This document shows positions 3,734-41,442 of a stretch of 58,491 nucleotides of DNA, piece after piece. How positions within the stretch are numbered: position 1 is the stretch's first letter; each line of letters opens with the position of its first letter. Made by a program: the position numbers and the translations under genes. Below the pieces are notes generated by a model. It worked only from the letters and a program-made list of their open reading frames with translations. It was not told the origin of the DNA and ran no database searches. The DNA is from Acidobacteriaceae bacterium (GTDB taxonomy: Bacteria > Acidobacteriota > Terriglobia > Terriglobales > Acidobacteriaceae): the NCBI GenBank assembly GCA_003140075.1, contig PLIO01000240.1:1-58491 (forward strand). The letters are read 5' to 3'.

Positions 3734-4471
3734 ATGATCCCGGAGAAAAAGATTAGCGAATTTGTCGGCCGGTTGCGAGAAGCGGCTGGAGCGAACCTTG
3801 AAAGTGTGATCCTGTTCGGATCGGCGGTCGCGGGAGACTTTCATCCCGAGCTCTCTAATGTCAATCTGTTCTGCGTGGTTCGGGACAGTTCGTTCGCAGC
3901 GTTGCAGGCGCTAGCACCTGCCGTGAAGTGGTGGGACGCGCAAAAGCAGCCACCGCCCTTGTTTATGACTCGCGATGAGATCGAGCACTCCACTGACGTA
4001 TTTACGATTGAGTTGCTGGACATGCAACAGCATCGCCGTGTTCTGTTCGGCGAGGACGTGGTGAAGAGTTTATCGATTCCGGCGAATCTGCACCGGGTTC
4101 AGGTGGAATACGAGCTGCGGGAGAAACTCGCGCTGCTGCGCCAGCACCTGCTTCTCGCTTCCGGCAAGGACTCTCGCCTTTGGGATCTGCTGGTACGATC
4201 GGTGTCGTCGTTCGCTACACTTTTTCGCCATGCGCTTATGGTGCTCGGTCACGAGGCTCCGGTTGGAAAGCGCGATGCGGTACAGGTTTTGTCAAAGCAG
4301 ATTGGGTTTGATGCCTCAGCCATTCTGCAGGTGCTGGATGTTAGGGAACGAAAGTTAGATCGCAAGAACCTCGATGTAGCGGATGTTTTTTCACGATACC
4401 TCGCCGCGGTAGAGCAGGTGACCGCCGCTGTTGATAGAATGCTGGACTCGGGTACAGTCGGTCCCAAGTAA
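3734..4471 (+). CDS. Nucleotidyltransferase-fold protein with altered metal-binding motif
   Basis: A 245-residue protein whose N-terminus (VILFGSAVAGDFHPELSNVN) is the pol-beta/MNT nucleotidyltransferase helix-turn motif GS-x(n)-DxD. The two metal-binding aspartates are replaced by asparagines (SNVNL instead of SDxDL), so catalysis is doubtful. The rest is helical and resembles the HEPN-like C-terminal half of such proteins. It lies between the TPM gene (13 nt upstream) and lemA (28 nt downstream), so the three look like one operon. ATG 3734 is chosen because the upstream extension reads through the Gly-rich coding region of the TPM gene. A binding or scaffolding role is inference. Confidence 0.75.
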   Translation: MIPEKKISEFVGRLREAAGANLESVILFGSAVAGDFHPELSNVNLFCVVRDSSFAALQALAPAVKWWDAQKQPPPLFMTRDEIEHSTDVFTIELLDMQQHRRVLFGEDVVKSLSIPANLHRVQVEYELREKLALLRQHLLLASGKDSRLWDLLVRSVSSFATLFRHALMVLGHEAPVGKRDAVQVLSKQIGFDASAILQVLDVRERKLDRKNLDVADVFSRYLAAVEQVTAAVDRMLDSGTVGPK

Positions 4472-4499
4472 GTTTTCCGAAGCTTATCAGGAGAATCTC

Positions 4500-5132
4500 A
4501 TGAGCAAGGTTCTGATCGTCATCGCGGTTATCGTGGTATTTCTATTGCTGGTGGTCCTGTTTACTTTTGGCCAATACGTGAGCGTGAAGAATACGCTCGT
4601 CAGCAAGAACGAGAGTGTGAAGGCAGCCTGGTCACAGGTGGACATCGTGCTGCAGCGCCGCGCCGACCTCATCCCAAATCTAGTTGAGACGGTGAAGGGC
4701 AACGCACAGCAAGAAGTAACGGTGTTCGGCGATATCGCGAAGGCGCGCTCTGCCCTGCTTTCCGCGGGCTCTCCGCAAGAGAAGATCGCAGCCAACGGGC
4801 AGCTTGACGGCGCGATCGGGCGCTTGCTGCTAGTGGTGGAGAATTATCCTCAGTTGAAGTCCAACGAGAATTTCCTGCGTTTGCAGGATGAACTCGCCGG
4901 CACCGAGAACCGCATTGCGGTCGAGCGCAAGCGCTACAACGACACTCTGCGCGACTACAACACTTACGTGCAGCAGTTCCCTAACAGCTTTTTTGCAGGG
5001 ATTGCAGGATTCAAGCCGAACGAAGCATACTTCGAAGCCTCCCCAGGATCGCGCGAAGTTCCGAAGGTGAACTTTTCAAGTCCCGGTGCAACGGCTCCGC
5101 AGGCGACTCCTCAGCCTGCGCCGGTGCACTAG
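4500..5132 (+). CDS. lemA: LemA family protein
   Basis: A 210-residue protein with one N-terminal transmembrane helix (about 3-27) and the LemA core: VKAAWSQVDIVLQRRADLIPNLVETVKG, VVENYPQLKSNENFLRLQDEL and ENRIAVERKRYND, ending in FFAGIAGFKPNEAYFEA. The long helices with NLVETVKG and ENRI are diagnostic. A Pro/Ala-rich tail follows. A CAGGAGAA ribosome site precedes ATG 4500. LemA proteins are membrane-anchored with a helical cytoplasm-averted domain, commonly encoded with TPM proteins as here; biochemical role is not established. Confidence 0.92.
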   Translation: MSKVLIVIAVIVVFLLLVVLFTFGQYVSVKNTLVSKNESVKAAWSQVDIVLQRRADLIPNLVETVKGNAQQEVTVFGDIAKARSALLSAGSPQEKIAANGQLDGAIGRLLLVVENYPQLKSNENFLRLQDELAGTENRIAVERKRYNDTLRDYNTYVQQFPNSFFAGIAGFKPNEAYFEASPGSREVPKVNFSSPGATAPQATPQPAPVH

Positions 5133-32265: not shown

Positions 32266-32799
32266 CTACTTCGACCAGATTGGCCGCAGCGGGCCGTGCC
32301 GCAGAATGTCGTCGACATCTTCGACGCCCGCCAGATCAGGATAGTTGGCGCGCGGCGGAAGAGTAAACACGTATTTGCGGTTCCGCCCAAGCTCGTTGGG
32401 AACAATCGTCCCTCCGTTTACCAGGTAGTTACCCTGCTGAACTGAACCCCACTGCGCAACCGTGAAGACCATGATCGGGATGTCTTGTCGTGGAGTCTTC
32501 TTCGTCCAGGCGGGGTGCCGGATGTAGATTAAAGGCCCGCGCTCAACGTCGCCCTTTTGCACGTCACTCCCTTCCCACGTCTCCGTGACAATGGTGTAGC
32601 CCTTCCAACCTTGCGGCAGGGAGAAGGTAAAGCCGTACTTCGTGTTCTTGTATATGATTTCCTCAGTCGAAGTTTCGGTCGCCGGTTTCTGTGCGGCTTG
32701 CTGTTCCGGCGGAGTTGAAGCCCTCTGCTGGCTGGCGAACATGGGCGCGATAACCACCCATGTCATCAGCAGCGCGTACATCCTGAGAGTAAAGTTCAT
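32266..32799 (-). CDS. Hypothetical exported protein downstream of the NamZ fusion
   Basis: A 177-residue protein with an N-terminal signal peptide (about 1-22), a Gln/Thr/Pro linker and a soluble domain containing YKNTKYGFTFSLPQGWKGYT and GPLIYIRHPAW. The GF.FSLP..W pattern recalls small envelope proteins with a PsbP-like fold, but I cannot assign a family. It lies 35 nt downstream of the AmiE-NamZ fusion gene on the same strand, so likely co-transcribed. ATG 32799 precedes the signal peptide. Confidence 0.65.
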   Translation of the reverse strand: MNFTLRMYALLMTWVVIAPMFASQQRASTPPEQQAAQKPATETSTEEIIYKNTKYGFTFSLPQGWKGYTIVTETWEGSDVQKGDVERGPLIYIRHPAWTKKTPRQDIPIMVFTVAQWGSVQQGNYLVNGGTIVPNELGRNRKYVFTLPPRANYPDLAGVEDVDDILRHGPLRPIWSK

Positions 32800-32834
32800 T
32801 CCTGCTATCTGCTCCTCGCATGTTCCAACGCGAA

Positions 32835-35216
32835 TCACTTATAGATCAAGTATTTCTGCCGCACCGACTCAAACTTCTTTAACTCTTCCTGCCAATCCTG
32901 CGCAATCCGCCGCGGATCCTTGCCTGATGTGATCCCGTCGTACGCCGCCTGATTCACCAGCAACTCCGCCATGCGCTCGATCTTGAAGTCGACCGGATAC
33001 AGCGTTCGCAACGCCGCAGCCAGTTCGATCCCTAACTCCGGCGCATCCAAGGCATTGCGCTCGGTCAGAACCACATTCGCGCCCTCACACTTCTGGCCAG
33101 CGTAATTACTCGCCGTAGGCGTAAACGTGATCGGCACGAATCTAACTCCGGCGATGCCGCGAACATTCAAATAGGCCGCGAGTTCGCGGCTCTTTATCCA
33201 CGGAGCGCCCACCAGTTCGAACGGAGTATCCGTGCCGCGCCCGACGGAAACATTCGTGTATTCAATCAGTCCCACTCCAGGATACAGCGTGGCCTCGGTC
33301 ACGCTGCGCAAATTCGGGGACGGATTCACCCACTCCAGCCCGGTGGAATCGAACCAGTCTCCGCGCTGCCAGCCTTCCATCGGAACCACCGTCAACTTCG
33401 CATTGATGTTCTGTTCCGCGTTGAACATCTTCGCCAGCTCACCCAAAGTCATGCCATGCCGCACCGGCACAGTCCAGTAATTCGTAAACCTCTCCTGTCC
33501 CGCATCCCCTACCGGACCCTGCACGAAAGATCCCGTAATCGGATCAGGCCGGTCCAGCACAATCATCTCAACCCCAGCAGCAGCAGCCGCTTCCAGGAAA
33601 TACCCCAGCGTAGTCTCATAGGTAAAAAATGGCACGCCCGCATCCTGAATATCGAAAACCACCGCGTCCAGCGACTTCATCACATCCGGAGGTGGACGCC
33701 GCGCCGCATCCTTCGCCCCATACACGCTGTACACTGGAATTCCCGTCGCCGCATCTTTCGTGTTCGCCACATCGGTGGTATCCAGCATTCCCGTAACCCC
33801 GTGCTCCGGGCTGAAGATCGCCTCCAGCGAAACTCCCGGCGCCTGCGCCAGCACATCGATCGTCCGCCGACCATCCGCATCCACTCCCGTCTGGTTGGTC
33901 ACGAGCCCGATTCGCGTCTTGTGTCCAACAACTTGCAGCACGTCGAACTCATGCTCTTCCAATACGTCAATCCCATTTTTCACGCTGCCATTACGCGCGC
34001 TCATGCGCCGCGCTGCGCTCTGCGCCTCGTTGTAGCCAGTGATGCTCTCCCAGCGCAACGCCTCCTTCTCGCTTGCCCTTAGCGGCAGGGCCGCAGCCAC
34101 CGCCGTCGCCACCTTCGACCGCAGGGCAATCGCATTTGCCTTCCCGCGCGGATGCACCGCATTCGTCAACAGAATGATGTAAGTCTGCGTCGTTGGATCG
34201 ATCCACATCGATGTTCCGGTAAACCCGGTGTGCCCATACCCACCCACCGGCAGCAGATCGCCGCGATTCGAAGAGTACGGAGAATCAATATCCCACCCAA
34301 ACCCGCGCAGCACGGGCGCCGACGGCGGCTGCTCCGGCCGCGTCATCTTCTCCACCGACAGCGCCGAAAGAATCCCTCCGCCGCCATTCAGCAGTGCCTG
34401 GGCAAATTTTGCCAGATCGTCTCCCGTCGAGAACAGCCCCGCTTGCCCCGCCACGCCGCCCATTCTCCGCGCAGTCGGATCATGCACCAGCCCCCTCAGC
34501 ATGTGTTCGTTCTCGTCATACTGCGTGGGCGCGATCTTCTCAATCCACCCAGCCCGCCGGTCCAGCGGAGGCAAGAACCGCGTCCGTGCCATCTTCAGCG
34601 GCTGAAAAATATGGCGAGCCGCGTACTCGTCCAACGTCTCTCCCGAAACCCGCTCCACCAGCGCTCCCAAGACAATAAAATTGATGTCGCTGTAGGAAAA
34701 CTTCGACCCCGGCGCGTCCTGCGGTGTCTCTGCAAACGCCATCCGATAAGCCGTTTCCTTCCCTTCCCACGCCGTTTTGAGATCCAAGTCCGGCGCCAGC
34801 CCCGAGTAGTGCGTGAGCAACTGCCGCACCGTGATGTCTTCTTTTCCATTCTGCGCAAACTCCGGCAAATACTTCGCTACCGGATCGTTCAGCCTCACCT
34901 TGCCCTGTTCCACCAACTGCATCACAGCAGGAGTTGTAACAATCACCTTGGTCAGCGACGCCAGATCAAAAATCGTGTCCAGTGTCATCGGCTCGCGCCG
35001 CGGCTCCAGTGCACGCTCGCCGTAGGCCTTGCGATAGATCACTTGCCCGTCATGCCCGATCAGCAAGACAGCGCCCGGAATGGCCCCGTCATGCATCACC
35101 CGCTCGATGACCGCGTCAACCGCGCCCATTCGCGCTGCGGCAACCGGATGCTTCGCGTCCGCCGCTGCGTCTGCCGTCGGCGCGATCGCCAGAAGAGCGC
35201 AGCAAACCATAGACAC
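32835..35216 (-). CDS. AmiE-like serine hydrolase fused to NamZ exo-muramidase (DUF1343)
   Basis: A 793-residue exported protein with two enzymes. Residues about 25-395 are a beta-lactamase/AmiE-type serine hydrolase: Ser87-x-x-Lys90 (SLTK), YSD at 175-177, and HTGFTG. Residues about 410-793 are DUF1343/NamZ: VLQVVGHKTRIGLVTNQTGVD, IFSPEHG, VFDIQDAGVPFFTY, EMIVLDRPDP and EWVNPSPNLRS. In Bacillus subtilis NamZ releases MurNAc from glycan ends and AmiE removes the peptide; they are separate proteins in one cluster. The start appears to be GTG 35216 or ATG 35210, giving a short signal peptide. MurQ and a second AmiE-like gene are just across the divergent junction. Confidence 0.9.
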   Translation of the reverse strand: MSMVCCALLAIAPTADAAADAKHPVAAARMGAVDAVIERVMHDGAIPGAVLLIGHDGQVIYRKAYGERALEPRREPMTLDTIFDLASLTKVIVTTPAVMQLVEQGKVRLNDPVAKYLPEFAQNGKEDITVRQLLTHYSGLAPDLDLKTAWEGKETAYRMAFAETPQDAPGSKFSYSDINFIVLGALVERVSGETLDEYAARHIFQPLKMARTRFLPPLDRRAGWIEKIAPTQYDENEHMLRGLVHDPTARRMGGVAGQAGLFSTGDDLAKFAQALLNGGGGILSALSVEKMTRPEQPPSAPVLRGFGWDIDSPYSSNRGDLLPVGGYGHTGFTGTSMWIDPTTQTYIILLTNAVHPRGKANAIALRSKVATAVAAALPLRASEKEALRWESITGYNEAQSAARRMSARNGSVKNGIDVLEEHEFDVLQVVGHKTRIGLVTNQTGVDADGRRTIDVLAQAPGVSLEAIFSPEHGVTGMLDTTDVANTKDAATGIPVYSVYGAKDAARRPPPDVMKSLDAVVFDIQDAGVPFFTYETTLGYFLEAAAAAGVEMIVLDRPDPITGSFVQGPVGDAGQERFTNYWTVPVRHGMTLGELAKMFNAEQNINAKLTVVPMEGWQRGDWFDSTGLEWVNPSPNLRSVTEATLYPGVGLIEYTNVSVGRGTDTPFELVGAPWIKSRELAAYLNVRGIAGVRFVPITFTPTASNYAGQKCEGANVVLTERNALDAPELGIELAAALRTLYPVDFKIERMAELLVNQAAYDGITSGKDPRRIAQDWQEELKKFESVRQKYLIYK

Positions 35217-35353
35217 GATGACGCCGAAGGTCCTTGACGGAAAAAAACATCGGCCGTCCAGCGAATTTGATTCAGAAGGAATGCTTTGACTCTACACAAC
35301 CCCGGCGGGATGACTCAAGAAACGCAAGTAAGGGGTACCGCTTATGCCATATC

Positions 35354-36499
35354 ATGGACTTCTTGATGACTGCATCAGATCTCTCGTCGCCGCTGCTCGA
35401 TGCCTTCGAGCATCAGGACGAAGTTTTCGCTCCGGCTTTCCTAATCCTGCAAGAAGCGATCGCCCATCGATCTTTTCCAGGCGCTTCTGCCGCTATCGCT
35501 CACCGGGGACGCCTGGTCGCCCTTAAAGCCCTCGGCCGCTTGACTTACGAACCAACTTCTCCCTCCGTCACTCCCGCCACGCTCTTCGATCTCGCCTCGT
35601 TAACCAAAGTCGTCGCCACCACAACCATGGCGATGCTTCACTACCAGCGCGGCCTGCTTGACCTCGATGCTCCAGTCGCTGCGATCGTTCCCGAATTCAC
35701 GGCCGACGCTGAAAAGGATCCTCGCCGGCAAGAAGTAACCCTCCGTATGCTCTTGGCTCATTCCTCTGGCCTTCCCGCGTATGAAAAATTATTTCTGAAA
35801 ACAAAGACCCGCGACGAACTCCTCCAAGCCGCCTTCACCATGCCGCTGGCCGCCGATCCCGGCACCCGCGCCGCGTACAGCGACATCGGGTTCATCATCC
35901 TCAGCATCGCGCTCGAACGCCTCGCCGATGAATCCCTCGACCGTTTCTGCCAGCGCGAAATCTTCGCCCCGCTCGGAATGACGCATACAACTTTCAATCC
36001 ACCGACGAAGATCCGCTCAGAAATCCCGCCCACCGTAGACGATCAAACCTTCCGCTATCGAATCATCCAGGGCGAAGTGCAGGACGAAAATGCCAGCGTG
36101 CTGAGCGGAGTAGCCCCGCATGCCGGACTCTTCTCCTCCGCTGAGGATCTGGCGAAATTCGCCCACTGCATGCTCAACGGAGGCAGCCCCATTCTCCGAC
36201 CCGAAACCGTCGCTCTCTTCACCCGCCGCGAATCAAGTCCTCCCGGCACATCGCGCACCCTGGGTTGGGATACGCCCTCAACAACTTCGCAGTCCGGGAA
36301 ATATTTTTCGCCGCAGTCGTTCGGACATCTCGGCTACACTGGAGTTTCGCTGTGGATCGACCCCGTTCGCCAACTTTCGATAGCTCTGCTGACCAACCGC
36401 ACCTGGCCCGACTGTTCCAACCAGGCCATCAAACAAGTCCGCCCCAGCTTTCACGATGCCGCTTCCGAAACCCTGATTAGCTTATCGTCGCAATGTTGA
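35354..36499 (+). CDS. AmiE-like beta-lactamase-family serine hydrolase, cytosolic
   Basis: A 381-residue protein with the serine beta-lactamase-like fold: SLTK nucleophile motif (LFDLASLTKVVATT), YSD in AYSDIGFI, and GHLGYTG near the C-terminus. No signal peptide is visible, unlike the related domain of the NamZ fusion across the junction. The AmiE family hydrolyses the MurNAc-L-Ala bond. ATG 35354 (MDFLMTAS) is chosen; ATG 35366 is possible. Its stop lies inside the start of murQ (36493-36499), so the two are translationally coupled, supporting a wall-recycling role. It could instead be a generic esterase or D-aminopeptidase. Confidence 0.85.
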   Translation: MDFLMTASDLSSPLLDAFEHQDEVFAPAFLILQEAIAHRSFPGASAAIAHRGRLVALKALGRLTYEPTSPSVTPATLFDLASLTKVVATTTMAMLHYQRGLLDLDAPVAAIVPEFTADAEKDPRRQEVTLRMLLAHSSGLPAYEKLFLKTKTRDELLQAAFTMPLAADPGTRAAYSDIGFIILSIALERLADESLDRFCQREIFAPLGMTHTTFNPPTKIRSEIPPTVDDQTFRYRIIQGEVQDENASVLSGVAPHAGLFSSAEDLAKFAHCMLNGGSPILRPETVALFTRRESSPPGTSRTLGWDTPSTTSQSGKYFSPQSFGHLGYTGVSLWIDPVRQLSIALLTNRTWPDCSNQAIKQVRPSFHDAASETLISLSSQC

Positions 36500-37428
36500 G
36501 AATGAAAACCAGAAAGACCGATTCCAATCTCCGCCGCCTGCGCACCGAGCAGCCCAACCAAGCCGCTGCCGACCTCGACCGCAAATCGTCGCTTGAGATC
36601 GCCCGCCTCATCAACACCGAAGACGCCACTGTCGCCGCCGCCGTCGCTCGCGTCCTGCCCCAAATTGCGCGTGCTATCGATCTGGTTGCGGCCGCTCTCC
36701 GGCGCGGGGGACGTCTGATCTACATTGGTGCCGGAACCAGCGGCCGCATCGCCGCCCTGGACGCCGTCGAGTGCCCGCCCACGTTTGATGTCGATCCTCG
36801 CTCCGTGCAGTTCATCATCGCCGGAGGCGCCAAGGCTCTAGCCTCCGCTTCCGAGATCAGCGAGGATGACGTCAAGCAAGGCCGCGACGATGTGGCCCAG
36901 CGCAAACCCACCAGGCATGACGTGGTCCTCGGCATCGCCTCCAGTGGACGCACTCCCTTCACCGTCGCCGCCCTCGCCGAAGCGCGCCGCCGCGGCGCAC
37001 ATACCATCGCGCTCACCTGCAATCCGGATTCCCCGCTCGAGCGCGCCGCTCATTTCGCCATCGTCACCCGCGTCGGCCCCGAAGTCCTGGCCGGGTCGTC
37101 CCGCATGAAGGCCGGCACCGCCCACAAGATGGTCCTTAATATGATTTCTACTGGAGCCATGACGCGGCTGGGCTACGTCTATGGCAACCTCATGGTCAAC
37201 GTCGCGCCCAAGAACGAAAAACTGATCCAGCGCGCGATCGCGATCCTCGAACGCGCCACCGGAGCCGGACGCGAATCCTCCCGCGCTGCGCTCGAAGCTT
37301 CTGGCAATCGTACCCCCGTAGCTCTGGTGATGCTGGCTGCTGGCGTTACTCGTTCCCAAGCGGTCGCCGCTCTGAAAAAAACCAAGGGGCACGTCCGGCA
37401 AGCGATAGCCCAGGCGAAAACTGCCTAG
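36493..37428 (+). CDS. murQ: N-acetylmuramic acid 6-phosphate etherase
   Basis: A 311-residue SIS-domain enzyme with MurQ signatures: IYIGAGTSGRIAALDAVECP (Glu93 at the position of the catalytic acid of the E. coli enzyme), the IAGGAKALASASE segment, and GPEVLAGSSRMKAGTAHKMV. It cleaves D-lactate from MurNAc-6-phosphate to give GlcNAc-6-phosphate. It starts inside the last codons of the AmiE-like gene (ATG 36493; ATG 36502 also possible). No MurNAc kinase or PTS transporter is in the window, so the source of MurNAc-6-P must be encoded elsewhere. Confidence 0.95.
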   Translation: MLRMKTRKTDSNLRRLRTEQPNQAAADLDRKSSLEIARLINTEDATVAAAVARVLPQIARAIDLVAAALRRGGRLIYIGAGTSGRIAALDAVECPPTFDVDPRSVQFIIAGGAKALASASEISEDDVKQGRDDVAQRKPTRHDVVLGIASSGRTPFTVAALAEARRRGAHTIALTCNPDSPLERAAHFAIVTRVGPEVLAGSSRMKAGTAHKMVLNMISTGAMTRLGYVYGNLMVNVAPKNEKLIQRAIAILERATGAGRESSRAALEASGNRTPVALVMLAAGVTRSQAVAALKKTKGHVRQAIAQAKTA

Positions 37429-37543
37429 AAACGCAGCAACGACACGCTCTCTTGTTTGACCCCTCCGCCGCAGTCGGTTACCTTTGACAGTGCCGTTTCT
37501 CACTTCGCGTTGCGAGGTTCGCGGCGCGAAGCTTCTCCCCTTC

Positions 37544-38608
37544 ATGGATAAAAAGCGCATCGTGGCCAGTGTTGTCGTGTTCTTCATCCTGGCCGTTCTG
37601 GTTTACCTGCAATATCGCCACTGGCAGAGTTTTGATTGGGGCACGTTCTGGGCCCAGATTCACCGCATCAAGAAAGTTCACGTGCTGCATGGGATCGCCT
37701 TGGTCTATGCGGCCTATGTGCTGCGCGCGCTACGCTGGAAGATGTTTCTAAGGCCGGTAAGACCGAAGGTGAAAGTCATCGACTTGGTGCCGCCGATGGT
37801 GATCGGCTTTACCGGGCTGGCACTCCTGGGGAGGGCGGGCGAGTTTATCCGTCCTTATCTGGTCGCGCGGCGAACCAGCCTTCCCTTTTCCTCGCAACTG
37901 GCGGTGTGGGCCGTAGAGCGCACTTTCGATGTGGGTGCGTTCGCGGCGTTGATCGTGCTGGCGATTTTCTTGCCGAGCGCACTTCAATCGATTCCTCATC
38001 CCGAATATTACCGGCAGTTCCGCGATGCGGGATTTCTGCTGGTCGCGGGAGTTGCTGCGGCAGCTGCGGGCGCGGTGCTAATTGCCCGCAGCGGCGAAGC
38101 CATCGCGCAGTGGATCGAGCAGAGGTTCTCTCATCTGTCTTCGGGACTCGGACACCGGCTGGCGCAGAAGGTGCGCGAGTTCGGCATGGGTCTAAATACG
38201 ATTCATGGGCCCTGGTCGCTGTTGTGGCTAGCGCTGTTGTCGGTCGGAATCTGGTACGTGACGGCGCTGGCGTATCAGGAAGTGACACACTCCTACGGCG
38301 TGGCGGCGCTGGAGATTCCCGTCTCCCAGCTATTGATTCTGATGGGGGCGAGCATGGCGGGGTCGATGCTGCAGTTGCCGGCGGTGGGCGGCGGCTCGCA
38401 GATGGCAACGATCGCCACGCTTTCGAGCGTGTTTGACGTGCCTCCGGAGATGGCGGCGAGCTGCGGGATTCTGCTGTGGCTGGTCACATTTGCCGCGGTT
38501 GTACCCCTGGGCTTGGCGCTGGCGCATCGCGAGAGACTGTCGTTACGAAAATTGTCGGAGGAAAGTCATCGGGCGGAGGAAACGGAAATCAGTGGACCGT
38601 CGGCCTGA
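37544..38608 (+). CDS. Flippase-like membrane protein (UPF0104 / LPG synthase TM domain)
   Basis: A 354-residue polytopic protein with about eight helices. Segments LRALRWKMFLRPV, IGFTGLALLGRAGEFIRPYLVARR and ERTFDVGAFAALIV are hallmarks of the lysylphosphatidylglycerol synthase transmembrane/UPF0104 family (GRAGE.IRP...ERxxD). The catalytic aminoacyl-transfer domain of MprF is absent, so it is not a full LPG synthase; related stand-alone proteins have been proposed as lipid or glycolipid flippases. A Glu/Ser-rich soluble tail ends the protein. ATG 37544 begins the first helix. It lies 115 nt after murQ. Confidence 0.85.
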   Translation: MDKKRIVASVVVFFILAVLVYLQYRHWQSFDWGTFWAQIHRIKKVHVLHGIALVYAAYVLRALRWKMFLRPVRPKVKVIDLVPPMVIGFTGLALLGRAGEFIRPYLVARRTSLPFSSQLAVWAVERTFDVGAFAALIVLAIFLPSALQSIPHPEYYRQFRDAGFLLVAGVAAAAAGAVLIARSGEAIAQWIEQRFSHLSSGLGHRLAQKVREFGMGLNTIHGPWSLLWLALLSVGIWYVTALAYQEVTHSYGVAALEIPVSQLLILMGASMAGSMLQLPAVGGGSQMATIATLSSVFDVPPEMAASCGILLWLVTFAAVVPLGLALAHRERLSLRKLSEESHRAEETEISGPSA

Positions 38609-38736
38609 GGGAAATTTTCTGTCTATTACGCAGGTACGTGCCGCGAGTTTGCGCACGGCTCCCCTGTTACAATTTCTGTATTAATTCCGAACATTCGATT
38701 TAGTTGAACATATCGCTTTCTAGCGGCATCAGCGCC

Positions 38737-39234
38737 ATGAAATGTCCCTTTTGCGGATTTGCCAACGACAAGGTGGTTGACTCGCGCGAGAGCAAAGAGG
38801 CGGAGTCGATCCGCCGCCGCCGCGAGTGCCTGAAGTGCGGCAAGCGCTTCACCACCTACGAGCGCATCGACGAAATCCCCTACATGGTCGTCAAGAAGGA
38901 CGGACGGCGGGAGAAGTTCGACCGGCAGAAAGTTCTGAATGGACTCCTGCGTGCATGTGAAAAGCGGCCTGTGCCGATCAGCAAGCTGGAACAGATTGTG
39001 AATGAAGCCGAGTCATTCGTCATCGAGTCGCAGGAGCGCGAGCGCAAGACCAGCGAACTGGGGGAACTCATCATGAACCGGTTGCGGCGTTACGACAAAG
39101 TCGCGTACGTCCGGTTTGCCTCGGTGTATCTGGATTTCAAAGACGTCAAAGAATTCATGAATGAGCTAAGAGATTTGGTGAAAGCGAAGGAACCGGTGGA
39201 AGTTCGTGGGAAAAAAGTGGTCAATGACAACTGA
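38737..39234 (+). CDS. nrdR: Transcriptional repressor NrdR
   Basis: A 165-residue protein: N-terminal zinc ribbon (CPFCG with C..C, then ECLKCGKRFTTYER) followed by an ATP-cone domain (MVVKKDGRREKFDRQKVLNGLLRACEKRPV). NrdR represses ribonucleotide reductase genes in response to dATP/ATP. ATG 38737 (MKCPFCGF) is the conserved family start; an upstream start at 38704 would add a non-conserved extension. No nrd genes are in the window. It precedes an isocitrate dehydrogenase by 21 nt. Confidence 0.97.
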   Translation: MKCPFCGFANDKVVDSRESKEAESIRRRRECLKCGKRFTTYERIDEIPYMVVKKDGRREKFDRQKVLNGLLRACEKRPVPISKLEQIVNEAESFVIESQERERKTSELGELIMNRLRRYDKVAYVRFASVYLDFKDVKEFMNELRDLVKAKEPVEVRGKKVVNDN

Positions 39235-39255
39235 CCTCTGAGAGAGCAGTGAATC

Positions 39256-40287
39256 ATGAGTCATAAAGTAACCTTGATACCCGGAGATGGAATTGGCCCC
39301 GAAGTTACTCAGGCGACCGTCCGCATTCTCGAAGCTACAGGCGTGAAGTTCGAGTGGGAGTCTTTTGCGGTGGGCGCGGATGCTTTTGAGAAGCACGGCG
39401 AATACATTCCGAAGGAAGTGATCGAGTCGATCGAACGCACCCATGTTGCACTGAAGGGTCCGGTCACAACACCCGTCGGTGGCGGCTTTTCCAGTATTAA
39501 CGTTGCTCTGCGCCAGAAATTTGAGCTGTATGCGAACTTTCGCCCGATCCGAAATCTGCCCCATATTCCCACGCGTTACCCGGATGTCGATCTCATCATC
39601 GTCCGCGAAAACACCGAGAGTCTCTACTCCGGACTGGAGCACGAAGTGGTTCCGGGCGTGGTGGAGAGCCTGAAGATCATCACGGAAAAGGCTTCGACGC
39701 GAATTGCGAAATTCGCGTTCGAATACGCCCGTAAGAATCAGCGCAAGAAAATCCACGCGATTCACAAAGCCAATATCATGAAGTTGTCGGATGGGTTATT
39801 CCTGCGCTGCTGCCGCACCGTGGCCAAGGGCTTTCCCGAAATCACCTATGGTGAGCACATCGTGGATAACACCTGCATGCAGCTCGTCATGAATCCGTAT
39901 CAGTACGACATGCTGGTGATGGAAAACCTGTACGGCGATATTCTCTCGGATTTATGCGCCGCATTCGTCGGCGGCCTGGGATTTGTTCCCAGCGCAAATC
40001 TGGGCGACCACTGCGCCATTTTTGAGGCCGTCCATGGATCGGCACCCGATATCGCGGGCAAGAACCTGGCAAATCCGACGGCGCTCTTGCGCTCTTCGCT
40101 CCTCATGCTGCGGCACCTGAACGAGTTCGACGCTTCCACGCAGATTCGCAACGCATTGGAGAGGGTGTACCGGCATCCCAAAAAGCTGACGAAGGATATC
40201 GGCGGCCAGGCGGGCACATCGGAATTCGCCGACGCAGTAATCGAAGAGATGGACAAGGCAAAAGCCGCGCCGGCAGCCGCTCACTAG
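39256..40287 (+). CDS. Isocitrate dehydrogenase (NAD-type, IDH/IMDH family)
   Basis: A 343-residue decarboxylating dehydrogenase: VTLIPGDGIGPEVT, GPVTTPVGGGFSSINVALRQKFELYANFRP, the metal-binding YDMLVMENLYGDILSDL and EAVHGSAPDIAG. The SINVALRQ segment indicates isocitrate rather than isopropylmalate substrate (which would carry an LRxxLDLxxNLRP context with Glu/Leu). The short length fits NAD-dependent homodimeric enzymes. Start ATG 39256, with AGAGAGCAG upstream. Converts isocitrate to 2-oxoglutarate in the TCA cycle. NAD versus NADP use is inference. Confidence 0.88.
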   Translation: MSHKVTLIPGDGIGPEVTQATVRILEATGVKFEWESFAVGADAFEKHGEYIPKEVIESIERTHVALKGPVTTPVGGGFSSINVALRQKFELYANFRPIRNLPHIPTRYPDVDLIIVRENTESLYSGLEHEVVPGVVESLKIITEKASTRIAKFAFEYARKNQRKKIHAIHKANIMKLSDGLFLRCCRTVAKGFPEITYGEHIVDNTCMQLVMNPYQYDMLVMENLYGDILSDLCAAFVGGLGFVPSANLGDHCAIFEAVHGSAPDIAGKNLANPTALLRSSLLMLRHLNEFDASTQIRNALERVYRHPKKLTKDIGGQAGTSEFADAVIEEMDKAKAAPAAAH

Positions 40288-40339
40288 AAACAGTTTCAAT
40301 CTTTTTGCAATTATTCCACGTGGTTACTCGATTCCGCCA

Positions 40340-40368
40340 TTGACTCTCGCCGCGGATGGGAGTAAATT
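40340..40368 (+). promoter_or_regulatory. Probable promoter of hemH
   Basis: TTGACT (40340-40345), a 17-bp spacer, and TAAATT (40363-40368), 24 nt before the hemH start codon. A fair sigma-70-like match in a 105-nt intergenic gap. Confidence 0.5.
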
Positions 40369-40392
40369 CGCCCGTTCTGGGGAATCTGGGGG

Positions 40393-41442
40393 ATGACGCG
40401 CACAACACGGCGTGTGGGGGTGGTTCTGTTTCAGCTGGGCGGGCCTGACACGCTGGCTGCGATAGAGCCTTTCCTTTATAACCTCTTCTGTGACCCCGAT
40501 ATTATTGATTTTCCTTTCGCCCGCATCGGACGCAAACCTCTGGCTAAATTAATCTCGACCACACGCGCGCGCAAAGTGCAGCACCACTACGCCACGATCG
40601 GTGGAGGCTCGCCTATTCGCAAATTCACCGAGCGGCAAGCGCGGGCTCTGGAAGTCGAGCTCACAAGCCAGGGTCTGGATGCGCGCTGCTTTGTGGCCAT
40701 GCGCTACTGGCATCCGTTCACCCGCGAAGCCGTCGCGCAGATCGCGGACGCGCAATGCGACGAGGTTGTCTTGCTGCCCCTGTATCCGCAGTATTCTTCC
40801 ACCACCACGGGCAGCAGCCTGAACGAATGGCAACGCCTGTTCCGCAGCGGCATCCCTGTACGCAACGTGGGTGCCTTCTATCGGCATCCCACGTATTTAG
40901 AGGCCGTCATCGAAAAAGTTGAAGAAGCTCTCGCGCGATTCCCGGTGCCGGAGCGGGCGGGGTTGGTTTTCAGCGCGCATAGCGTGCCCCTTTCCGTGAT
41001 TGCGAAGGGTGATCCTTACCAGCGGCAGATTGAGGAAACCGTGCGTCTACTGATGGAACGCGGCGGCTGGCCGAACCGTCACCGGCTCTGCTACCAGAGC
41101 AAGGTGGGTGCCAGCAAATGGCTGCAGCCTTCCCTGCACCGCGCACTGCAGGATCTGGCGTCCGACAAGACCCGGGAGGTGTGCGTCGTGCCGGTGGCGT
41201 TTGTTTCCGATCACGTGGAGACGCTGGGCGAGATCGATCACGAAGCGCGCGAAGAAGCGCGGCGACTGGGGATCACGCAGTTCGAGATGAGTTCGGGACT
41301 GAACGATACTCCGAAATTCATCTCCGCCCTGGGTCAGTTGGTGCAAGAGGCCCTGGGCGACGCGGTTTACTCTTGTGCTCCGGTTCATCCGAACGGGAGG
41401 CAAGTGGCGGCGCCGGAGTTGCTGGCCGCCGCGGGAGATTAG
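40393..41442 (+). CDS. hemH: Ferrochelatase
   Basis: A 349-residue enzyme: VGVVLFQLGGPDTLAAIEPFLYNLFCDPDII, the MRYWHPF segment and the catalytic-histidine motif FSAHSVPLSVI, then QSKVGASKWLQPS and VPVAFVSDHVETLGEIDHEA. It inserts ferrous iron into the porphyrin, giving haem b for the cytochrome cluster that follows only 31 nt downstream. No CxxC/[2Fe-2S] tail is obvious. Start ATG 40393. Confidence 0.96.
   Translation: MTRTTRRVGVVLFQLGGPDTLAAIEPFLYNLFCDPDIIDFPFARIGRKPLAKLISTTRARKVQHHYATIGGGSPIRKFTERQARALEVELTSQGLDARCFVAMRYWHPFTREAVAQIADAQCDEVVLLPLYPQYSSTTTGSSLNEWQRLFRSGIPVRNVGAFYRHPTYLEAVIEKVEEALARFPVPERAGLVFSAHSVPLSVIAKGDPYQRQIEETVRLLMERGGWPNRHRLCYQSKVGASKWLQPSLHRALQDLASDKTREVCVVPVAFVSDHVETLGEIDHEAREEARRLGITQFEMSSGLNDTPKFISALGQLVQEALGDAVYSCAPVHPNGRQVAAPELLAAAGD

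Follow-up and report, generated by a model that had tools for sequence, protein, structure and literature searches.

The window analyzed here, a 58,491-nucleotide stretch of DNA from an Acidobacteriaceae bacterium (contig PLIO01000240.1 of GenBank assembly GCA_003140075.1, C196 among the 276 contigs of a 5.77-Mb genome), carries a cell-wall locus in which a fusion of an AmiE-type serine hydrolase with the putative exo-muramidase NamZ, predicted to be exported, stands beside a second, signal-less AmiE-like hydrolase (AmiE2) and the N-acetylmuramic acid (MurNAc) 6-phosphate etherase MurQ. On balance, and with modest confidence, we favor a route that handles the products of peptidoglycan breakdown in two compartments and in which AmiE2 would do AmpD's job inside the cell. 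In the periplasm, the serine hydrolase of the fusion would strip the stem peptide from the terminal MurNAc of a glycan end and the NamZ domain would then free that sugar, alternating with an exported GH3/NagZ that would release N-acetylglucosamine (GlcNAc). Free MurNAc would be taken up, an SSF sodium symporter being the probable carrier, and a MurK-like kinase would phosphorylate it. In the cytosol, NagZ would trim fragments that enter with the peptide attached, AmiE2 would cut the bond between MurNAc (or anhydroMurNAc) and L-Ala, which is AmpD's work elsewhere, AnmK would phosphorylate the anhydro sugar, MurQ would turn MurNAc-6-phosphate into GlcNAc-6-phosphate, and Mpl would reuse the freed peptide. 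We infer every activity, substrate and transport step of this route; the original prediction, made from the letters of the window, had already suggested two compartments, and the gene set now found fits that suggestion, with export predicted as proposed. AmiE2 plausibly fills the AmpD step because cytosolic NagZ, AnmK and Mpl are present in the genome without a detectable AmpD-family protein.

New here are the lineage placement of AmiE2, its reading as the AmpD step, the kinase/SSF pair and the SSF fusions, the AmiE-NamZ fusion itself being known; neither the AmiE2-for-AmpD nor the SSF-NamZ reading had an account that we could find in the open-licence PMC literature. AmiE2 may take the place of a standard enzyme of recycling for which this genome gave no match, and this offers a testable answer to how stem peptides could be removed in bacteria where NagZ, AnmK, MurQ and Mpl occur and AmpD is not detectable. 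The work also puts forward SSF symporters as candidate importers of MurNAc for a large phylum of soil bacteria, and the domain swaps encountered (AmiE with NamZ, AmiE with NagZ, SSF with NamZ) show which steps are probably coupled.

The fusion, AmiE2 and MurQ

The sequence data show which domains and conserved catalytic motifs the proteins have, which of them is predicted to be exported, how the genes are ordered and how far that order is conserved, and what genes the genome contains. Pfam places Beta-lactamase at residues 33-363 of the fusion (8e-77), NamZ_N at 436-639 (1.1e-74) and NamZ_C at 644-792 (1.8e-46), both NamZ domains being near full length and far above cut-off, and the protein is the sole NamZ match in its genome. 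Its N-terminus, MSMVCCALLAIAPTADAAA, read from a GTG start, looks by eye and by hydropathy like a plausible signal peptide. Across 21 aligned fusions, S87, K90, Y175, D177, H329 and G331 of the hydrolase are invariant, and so is E471 (P-E-H-G) of the NamZ part. The solved DUF1343 protein 4k05 is matched by sequence (phmmer 5.5e-67) and, in a Foldseek search of PDB run with the fusion model only, by fold (1.8e-27, TMt 0.81), the model being weak (pLDDT 68.3, pTM 0.48) and too poor for domain orientation; esterases, D-peptidases and DD-peptidases are also among its fold matches.

AmiE2 holds a Beta-lactamase domain alone (PF00144, 1.3e-65). It carries no PF01510 domain and so is not of the AmpD family; the claim made for it is that of an AmpD-like role. 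The mechanical open reading frame (ORF), 35234-36499(+), encodes 421 amino acids from a TTG, the ATG at 35354 being the likelier start, and a signal-like stretch is missing from either start as well as when the frame is read back to the in-frame stop. S82, K85, Y175 and H325 are invariant in 14 aligned AmiE2-type rows, the structure model is weak (pLDDT 62.7), and PDB sequence matches of its PF00144 family include esterases, D-peptidases and DD-peptidases. The SxxK, Y and HxG motifs of both hydrolases are presumably the catalytic ones of the Beta-lactamase/S12 fold. The label “AmiE-like” draws on family, motif and gene context: both proteins have the S12 fold with these motifs and a murQ/nagZ/namZ gene context, whereas in hydropathy, the one measure used for export, the fusion appears exported and AmiE2 does not. 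Two other identities were ruled out for the fusion and AmiE2, namely PBP4B (NF002968; 168.4 and 161.9 bits vs a curated cut-off of 385) and class C beta-lactamase (NF033085; 69.8 and 44.3 bits vs 415).

MurQ (311 amino acids) scores 362 bits against TIGR00274, whose curated cut-off is 302. Thus far the original prediction stands: an AmiE-like domain fused to NamZ and bearing a predicted signal, a second AmiE-like protein without one, and MurQ at its side. Its further claim, that the last two genes are coupled by overlapping start and stop, fares less well. The overlap is 7 nucleotides if MurQ begins at ATG 36493 (the AmiE2 stop, TGA, occupies 36497-36499), but an in-frame ATG at 36502, directly past that stop, is an alternative start, so that the coupling depends on the start chosen. 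Among relatives, with both genes on the same strand and mechanical starts, the junction runs from overlaps to gaps, the latter being 90-250 nucleotides in many and 463 in one; 4-nucleotide overlaps occur in L092, L093, L115 and L145, and larger overlaps are probably wrong starts. The pairing of AmiE2 with MurQ is conserved and the overlap is not.

The arrangement was followed in a set of 61 genomes, our own included (37 of the same genus, 14 of a sister family and 10 other members of the class). NamZ occurs in 55 of them, in a frame of at least 700 amino acids (fusion size) in 29/37, 12/14 and 3/10, respectively; within the genus, six genomes have shorter NamZ frames, some at contig ends, and two (G013 and G022) lack a match to NamZ. 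Forty loci were fetched, 24 of the same genus and eight of the sister family among them. AmiE2 is divergent from the fusion in 21 of the 24 same-genus loci, and MurQ adjoins it on the same strand in 18 of these 21 pairs, which argues against chance. MurQ was not found in L047, meets a contig end in L072 and lies on the opposite strand in L046; AmiE2 is absent from the stretch in L066, L073 and L079 (where the contig starts within the fusion). In the sister family, MurQ diverges from the fusion and AmiE2 is absent in five of the eight loci (L055, L057, L065, L069, L076), the fusion, AmiE2 and MurQ genes follow one another in L056, and L054 and L075 have neither AmiE2 nor MurQ in the stretch.

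The fusion had also been set against the separate proteins of B. subtilis, and as a novelty it had to be given up. A survey of 2008 already lists the architecture (PMC2605481), which is widespread across phyla, so that the fusion alone is ordinary. NamZ was found in 241/297 genomes of a phylum sample, with solo-size and fusion-size frames both among the matches listed, and the fusion is spread over Acidobacteriota and turns up in Nitrospirota and Pseudomonadota as well. Of 582 confirmed places in named genomes, the best 80 include, next to Acidobacteriota, records labelled Nitrospirae, Thermodesulfobacteriota, Desulfobacterales, Pseudomonas panipatensis and Steroidobacteraceae, as well as single metagenome-assembled genomes labelled Armatimonadetes, Bacillota and Verrucomicrobia.

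Features of the proposed wall-recycling locus (positions in the window)
Feature	Position	Strand	Basis
AmiE-NamZ fusion, exported (predicted) AmiE-type serine hydrolase + NamZ, 793 amino acids	32835..35216	-	ORF, Pfam
Fusion signal peptide (predicted), about residues 1-22	35150..35216	-	sequence, hydropathy
Fusion serine hydrolase domain (PF00144, S12-type); S87-L-T-K90, Y175-S-D177, H329-T-G331	34128..35120	-	Pfam, alignment
Fusion NamZ_N domain; E471 within P-E-H-G	33300..33911	-	Pfam, alignment, 4k05 match
Fusion NamZ_C domain	32841..33287	-	Pfam
Divergent intergenic stretch, fusion to AmiE2, 137 bp	35217..35353	.	sequence
AmiE2, signal-less serine hydrolase; S82-L-T-K85, Y175-S-D177, H325-L-G327	35354..36499	+	Pfam, alignment, tree, hydropathy
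MurQ, MurNAc-6-phosphate etherase; alternative start 36502	36493..37428	+	TIGR00274

On the far side of the fusion, the small protein encoded by 32266-32838 has a signal-like N-terminus and, below threshold, a PsbP-like match; its frame overlaps the fusion stop by 4 nucleotides, and by BLAST it accompanies the fusion only in L046 and L079 among the 24 same-genus loci. Past MurQ (37484-41442), an LPG-synthase-like ORF is followed by NrdR-, isocitrate dehydrogenase- and HemH-like ORFs (identified by eye), an order kept in L052 and L078 and partly in L067.

Hydrolase lineages, recycling genes and candidate entry

An unrooted tree of 46 rows of serine hydrolase domains splits with branch support of 100/100. 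One side holds AmiE2 (13 rows), four NagZ-fused domains (L060, L169, which is cut at a contig end, L171 and L172) and two solo proteins; the other holds 24 NamZ-fused domains and three other proteins, among them that of L174, whose frame runs off the contig end and which may itself be a fusion. The tree leaves out the divergent NagZ-AmiE of L158, the NamZ-fused L049, L065, L116 and L149, and the AmiE2 of L051, L074, L103 and L115. As AmiE2 falls with the NagZ-fused domains and apart from the NamZ-fused ones, the hydrolase seems to be specialized by its glycosidase partner. L174 (genome G003) also holds a second AmiE2-MurQ pair, ~3.7 kb from the signal-bearing serine hydrolase of the NamZ-fused lineage. 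The NagZ-AmiE fusion of L158 (534-3341) lacks SxxK in its hydrolase part, perhaps a dead domain; genes for MurQ, AmiE-NamZ, SSF and a BadF kinase are present at the same locus.

The two lineages also differ in their N-termini. A hydrophobic stretch (12-residue mean of at least 2.0, judged by simple hydropathy alone and reading upstream as far as the in-frame stop) was found in 97 of 99 NamZ-fused rows vs 3 of 36 AmiE2-type rows, in one of which (L053) it is unlike a signal. These rows are not independent, the genomes partly repeating (L088/L049 and L090/L040 among others), and rows were skipped if they lacked the anchor motif, had too little sequence upstream or ran past the end of the stretch. 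The NagZ-fused rows (0/4) are uninformative on export, only 120 residues before the hydrolase being covered. Signal-like starts do occur in the NagZ-AmiE fusions L060 and L171 and in L170 and L056, and at mechanical starts L172 and the solo protein of L168 show none. Since some of its relatives look exported, AmiE2 probably lost an export signal rather than its relatives gaining one.

Elsewhere in the genome, a draft rated 100% complete and 5.8% contaminated, the check for NagZ called for in the original prediction was rewarded: a NagZ without a signal-like start lies side by side with AnmK on C272 (NCBIfam scores of 210.4 vs a cut-off of 207 and 486.5 vs 387, respectively). Mpl is above cut-off on C175, and C177 encodes a two-domain, NagZ-like GH3 protein with an N-terminal hydrophobic stretch (exported-looking) that shares 41% identity over 570 columns with the GH3 part of the L060 NagZ-AmiE. 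A profile search for PF01510/Amidase_2 (the AmpD family) found no match in this genome, the E. coli control being positive. Kinase and transporter, said to lie outside the window, have candidates together on C24 (L176), a BadF-type, MurK/NagK-like kinase (4061-4999) and an SSF symporter (642-2063), ~2 kb apart with another ORF between. The kinase's closest PDB relative is 8zo3, “N-acetylmuramic acid/N-acetylglucosamine kinase” (E 1.9e-33), but it also matches GlcNAc kinases and a hexokinase (NagK_SO3507 97.7 vs a cut-off of 370), so that the proposed search for a MurNAc kinase and permease yielded candidates for both with the kinase's sugar less sharply defined. The SSF gene came up through its place on the kinase contig rather than in a genome-wide SSF search; in the PDB it comes closest to 5nv9, described as a putative sodium:solute symporter, which we take to transport sialic acid in bacteria.

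In other Acidobacteriota, SSF genes are repeatedly found next to the fusion. Within ~7 kb of the fusion in the 80 named loci (best 80 of 582), raw counts are 25 for SSF-like genes, 23 for MurQ and 18 for AmiE2, and in L058, from another family, the SSF gene sits between fusion and MurQ. In two draft genomes, the link is covalent: a single 1379-amino acid ORF of L061 (1051-5190; G052) joins SSF, serine hydrolase, NamZ_N and NamZ_C, and a 990-amino acid frame of L183 (185-3157; G276, another family), whose start lies beyond the end of its 3.2-kb contig, joins SSF, NamZ_N and NamZ_C. In L180 (G199, the family of G276), SSF and NamZ are separate neighbors. Fusion would be stronger evidence than neighborhood for a functional tie, and owing to both the recurrence and the two fusions we nominate SSF symporters as candidate MurNAc importers in Acidobacteriota. 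In eight of nine loci whose intervening genes were read, an amino-acid permease gene lies between fusion and SSF: in L124 (9678-11060, by Pfam) and, by eye, in L121, L131, L133, L143, L147, L153 and L166.

Weighing the readings

Co-occurrence, with AmiE2 called as a non-fusion match above 300 bits, gives a mixed picture. In the genus, AmiE2 and AnmK are each found in 35 of the 37 genomes, Mpl over cut-off in 32 (two further matches, in G020 and G035, are partial) and PF01510/Amidase_2 in 4; in the sister family, the counts are 1, 9, 0 and 0 of 14, and in the ten other class members 5 (AmiE2-type), 7, 7 and 3, the PF01510 counts in relatives being counts of domain matches, which may or may not be AmpD proper. 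AmiE2 and Mpl are associated across the 61 genomes (34 with both, 7 and 5 with one only, 15 with neither; Fisher p 2.8e-5).

Several observations weigh against the route as we propose it. The association just given is confounded by shared ancestry, two clades giving most of the signal, because the sister family is without both genes (AmiE2 1/14, Mpl 0/14). AmiE2 and Amidase_2 do not exclude each other in the 61 genomes (5 with both, 36 and 2 with one only, 18 with neither; p = 1), and AmiE2 is also present in each of the four genus members where PF01510 was matched. The sister family keeps AnmK (9/14) with PF01510 at 0/14 and AmiE2 at 1/14, which implies that AnmK needs no cytosolic amidase of either kind. 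AmpG (TIGR00901) was not found over its cut-off of 350 in our genome (best 28.3 bits), which weighs on the proposed entry of peptide-bearing fragments into the cytosol; two sub-threshold matches were rejected as AmpG. As for import, SSF and AmiE2 occur together in 0 of the 80 named fusion loci and SSF genes in 0 of the 24 same-genus stretches, so that for this genus the lead comes down to contig C24, and the SSF fusions of L061 and L183, from draft genomes and one contig each, may be chimeric assemblies. S12-type hydrolases, finally, are functionally diverse. The replacement of AmpD by AmiE2 is thus plausibly argued from AmpD absence, lineage and context, not from a clean anti-correlation.

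That diversity, visible in the esterases, D-peptidases and DD-peptidases among the PDB matches, leaves room for AmiE2 to be a different S12-type hydrolase of the cytosol, for instance a carboxypeptidase that trims stem peptides after import in place of LdcA, a D-aminopeptidase or an esterase, and its PBP4B score of 162, though below the cut-off of 385, may be listed on the same side. We consider this unlikely, as AmiE2 falls within a lineage fused to NagZ or adjoining MurQ, and in Bacillus subtilis the gene of the MurNAc-L-Ala amidase AmiE adjoins nagZ and murP (PMC5061867). It is quite improbable that AmiE2 acts outside, by way of a start further upstream, a signal that went unrecognized or non-classical export, where it would duplicate the fusion amidase or pair with the exported-looking GH3 of this genome: relatives do have real-looking signals (L170, L056) or signal-like starts (the NagZ-AmiE of L060 and L171), but AmiE2 of the window shows no such stretch when read to the in-frame stop, and 33 of 36 AmiE2-type rows stay below threshold.

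A broader question is whose wall is degraded. A locus that scavenges the walls of other bacteria as food would fit with exported exo-enzymes, with an SSF symporter and with MurQ, which is a catabolic branch, as well as with the amino-acid permease genes of several other Terriglobia loci; AnmK, cytosolic NagZ and Mpl are, however, recycling enzymes, and most genomes of the genus retain AnmK and Mpl (cytosolic NagZ was looked for in our own genome alone). Scavenging instead of own-wall recycling therefore appears rather unlikely, although the two are not mutually exclusive. Returning to the two-compartment route, we tentatively postulate its fullest form, which we would sooner expect to fail in some part than to hold throughout: a serine amidase of the NagZ-partner lineage would have lost its export signal in this genus and replaced the zinc amidase AmpD in the cytosol, and SSF sodium symporters of the phylum (joined in one chain to AmiE-NamZ or NamZ in two draft genomes) would be a new type of MurNAc importer, taking the sugar as the attached enzyme frees it.

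Relation to known systems

We take the gene ybbC of B. subtilis to be namZ. With its cluster murQ-murR-murP-amiE-nagZ-ybbC (PMC5061867), the pathway proposed here shares MurQ, an AmiE-type serine hydrolase, NamZ and NagZ; that source has AmiE and NagZ acting outside as separate proteins and MurNAc entering via the phosphotransferase system protein MurP, whereas here NamZ carries its own hydrolase domain, the second hydrolase has no signal, and the candidates for entry are a symporter of the SSF family together with a kinase. A 2008 survey of serine proteases lists a DDPept-DUF1343 architecture once (YP_439122.1), under cell wall biosynthesis and with no mechanism (PMC2605481); these are the two domains of our fusion, PF00144 and DUF1343 (PF07075, now NamZ_N), which we find to be far more widespread than that single listing. 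RmNag3 of Rhodothermus marinus likewise joins a serine hydrolase domain to a peptidoglycan glycosidase, in an organism reported as having AnmK and NagK but neither AmpG nor AmpD (PMC6987092). Its partner is NagZ and that of our fusion NamZ, and the NagZ-fused domains of Acidobacteriota, in a tree that does not contain RmNag3, group with AmiE2. Compared with the E. coli route AmpG-NagZ-AmpD-AnmK-MurQ-Mpl (PMC9790009, PMC5061867), our genome has NagZ, AnmK, MurQ and Mpl and, unlike E. coli, no PF01510 match and no AmpG over cut-off. Agrobacterium, also without AmpG, uses an ATP-binding cassette importer (PMC9790009). Tannerella forsythia imports free MurNAc and passes it through a kinase and an etherase (MurT-MurK-MurQ; PMC10465942, PMC7670621), and the scheme we propose is of the same kind, with an SSF symporter as the candidate importer.

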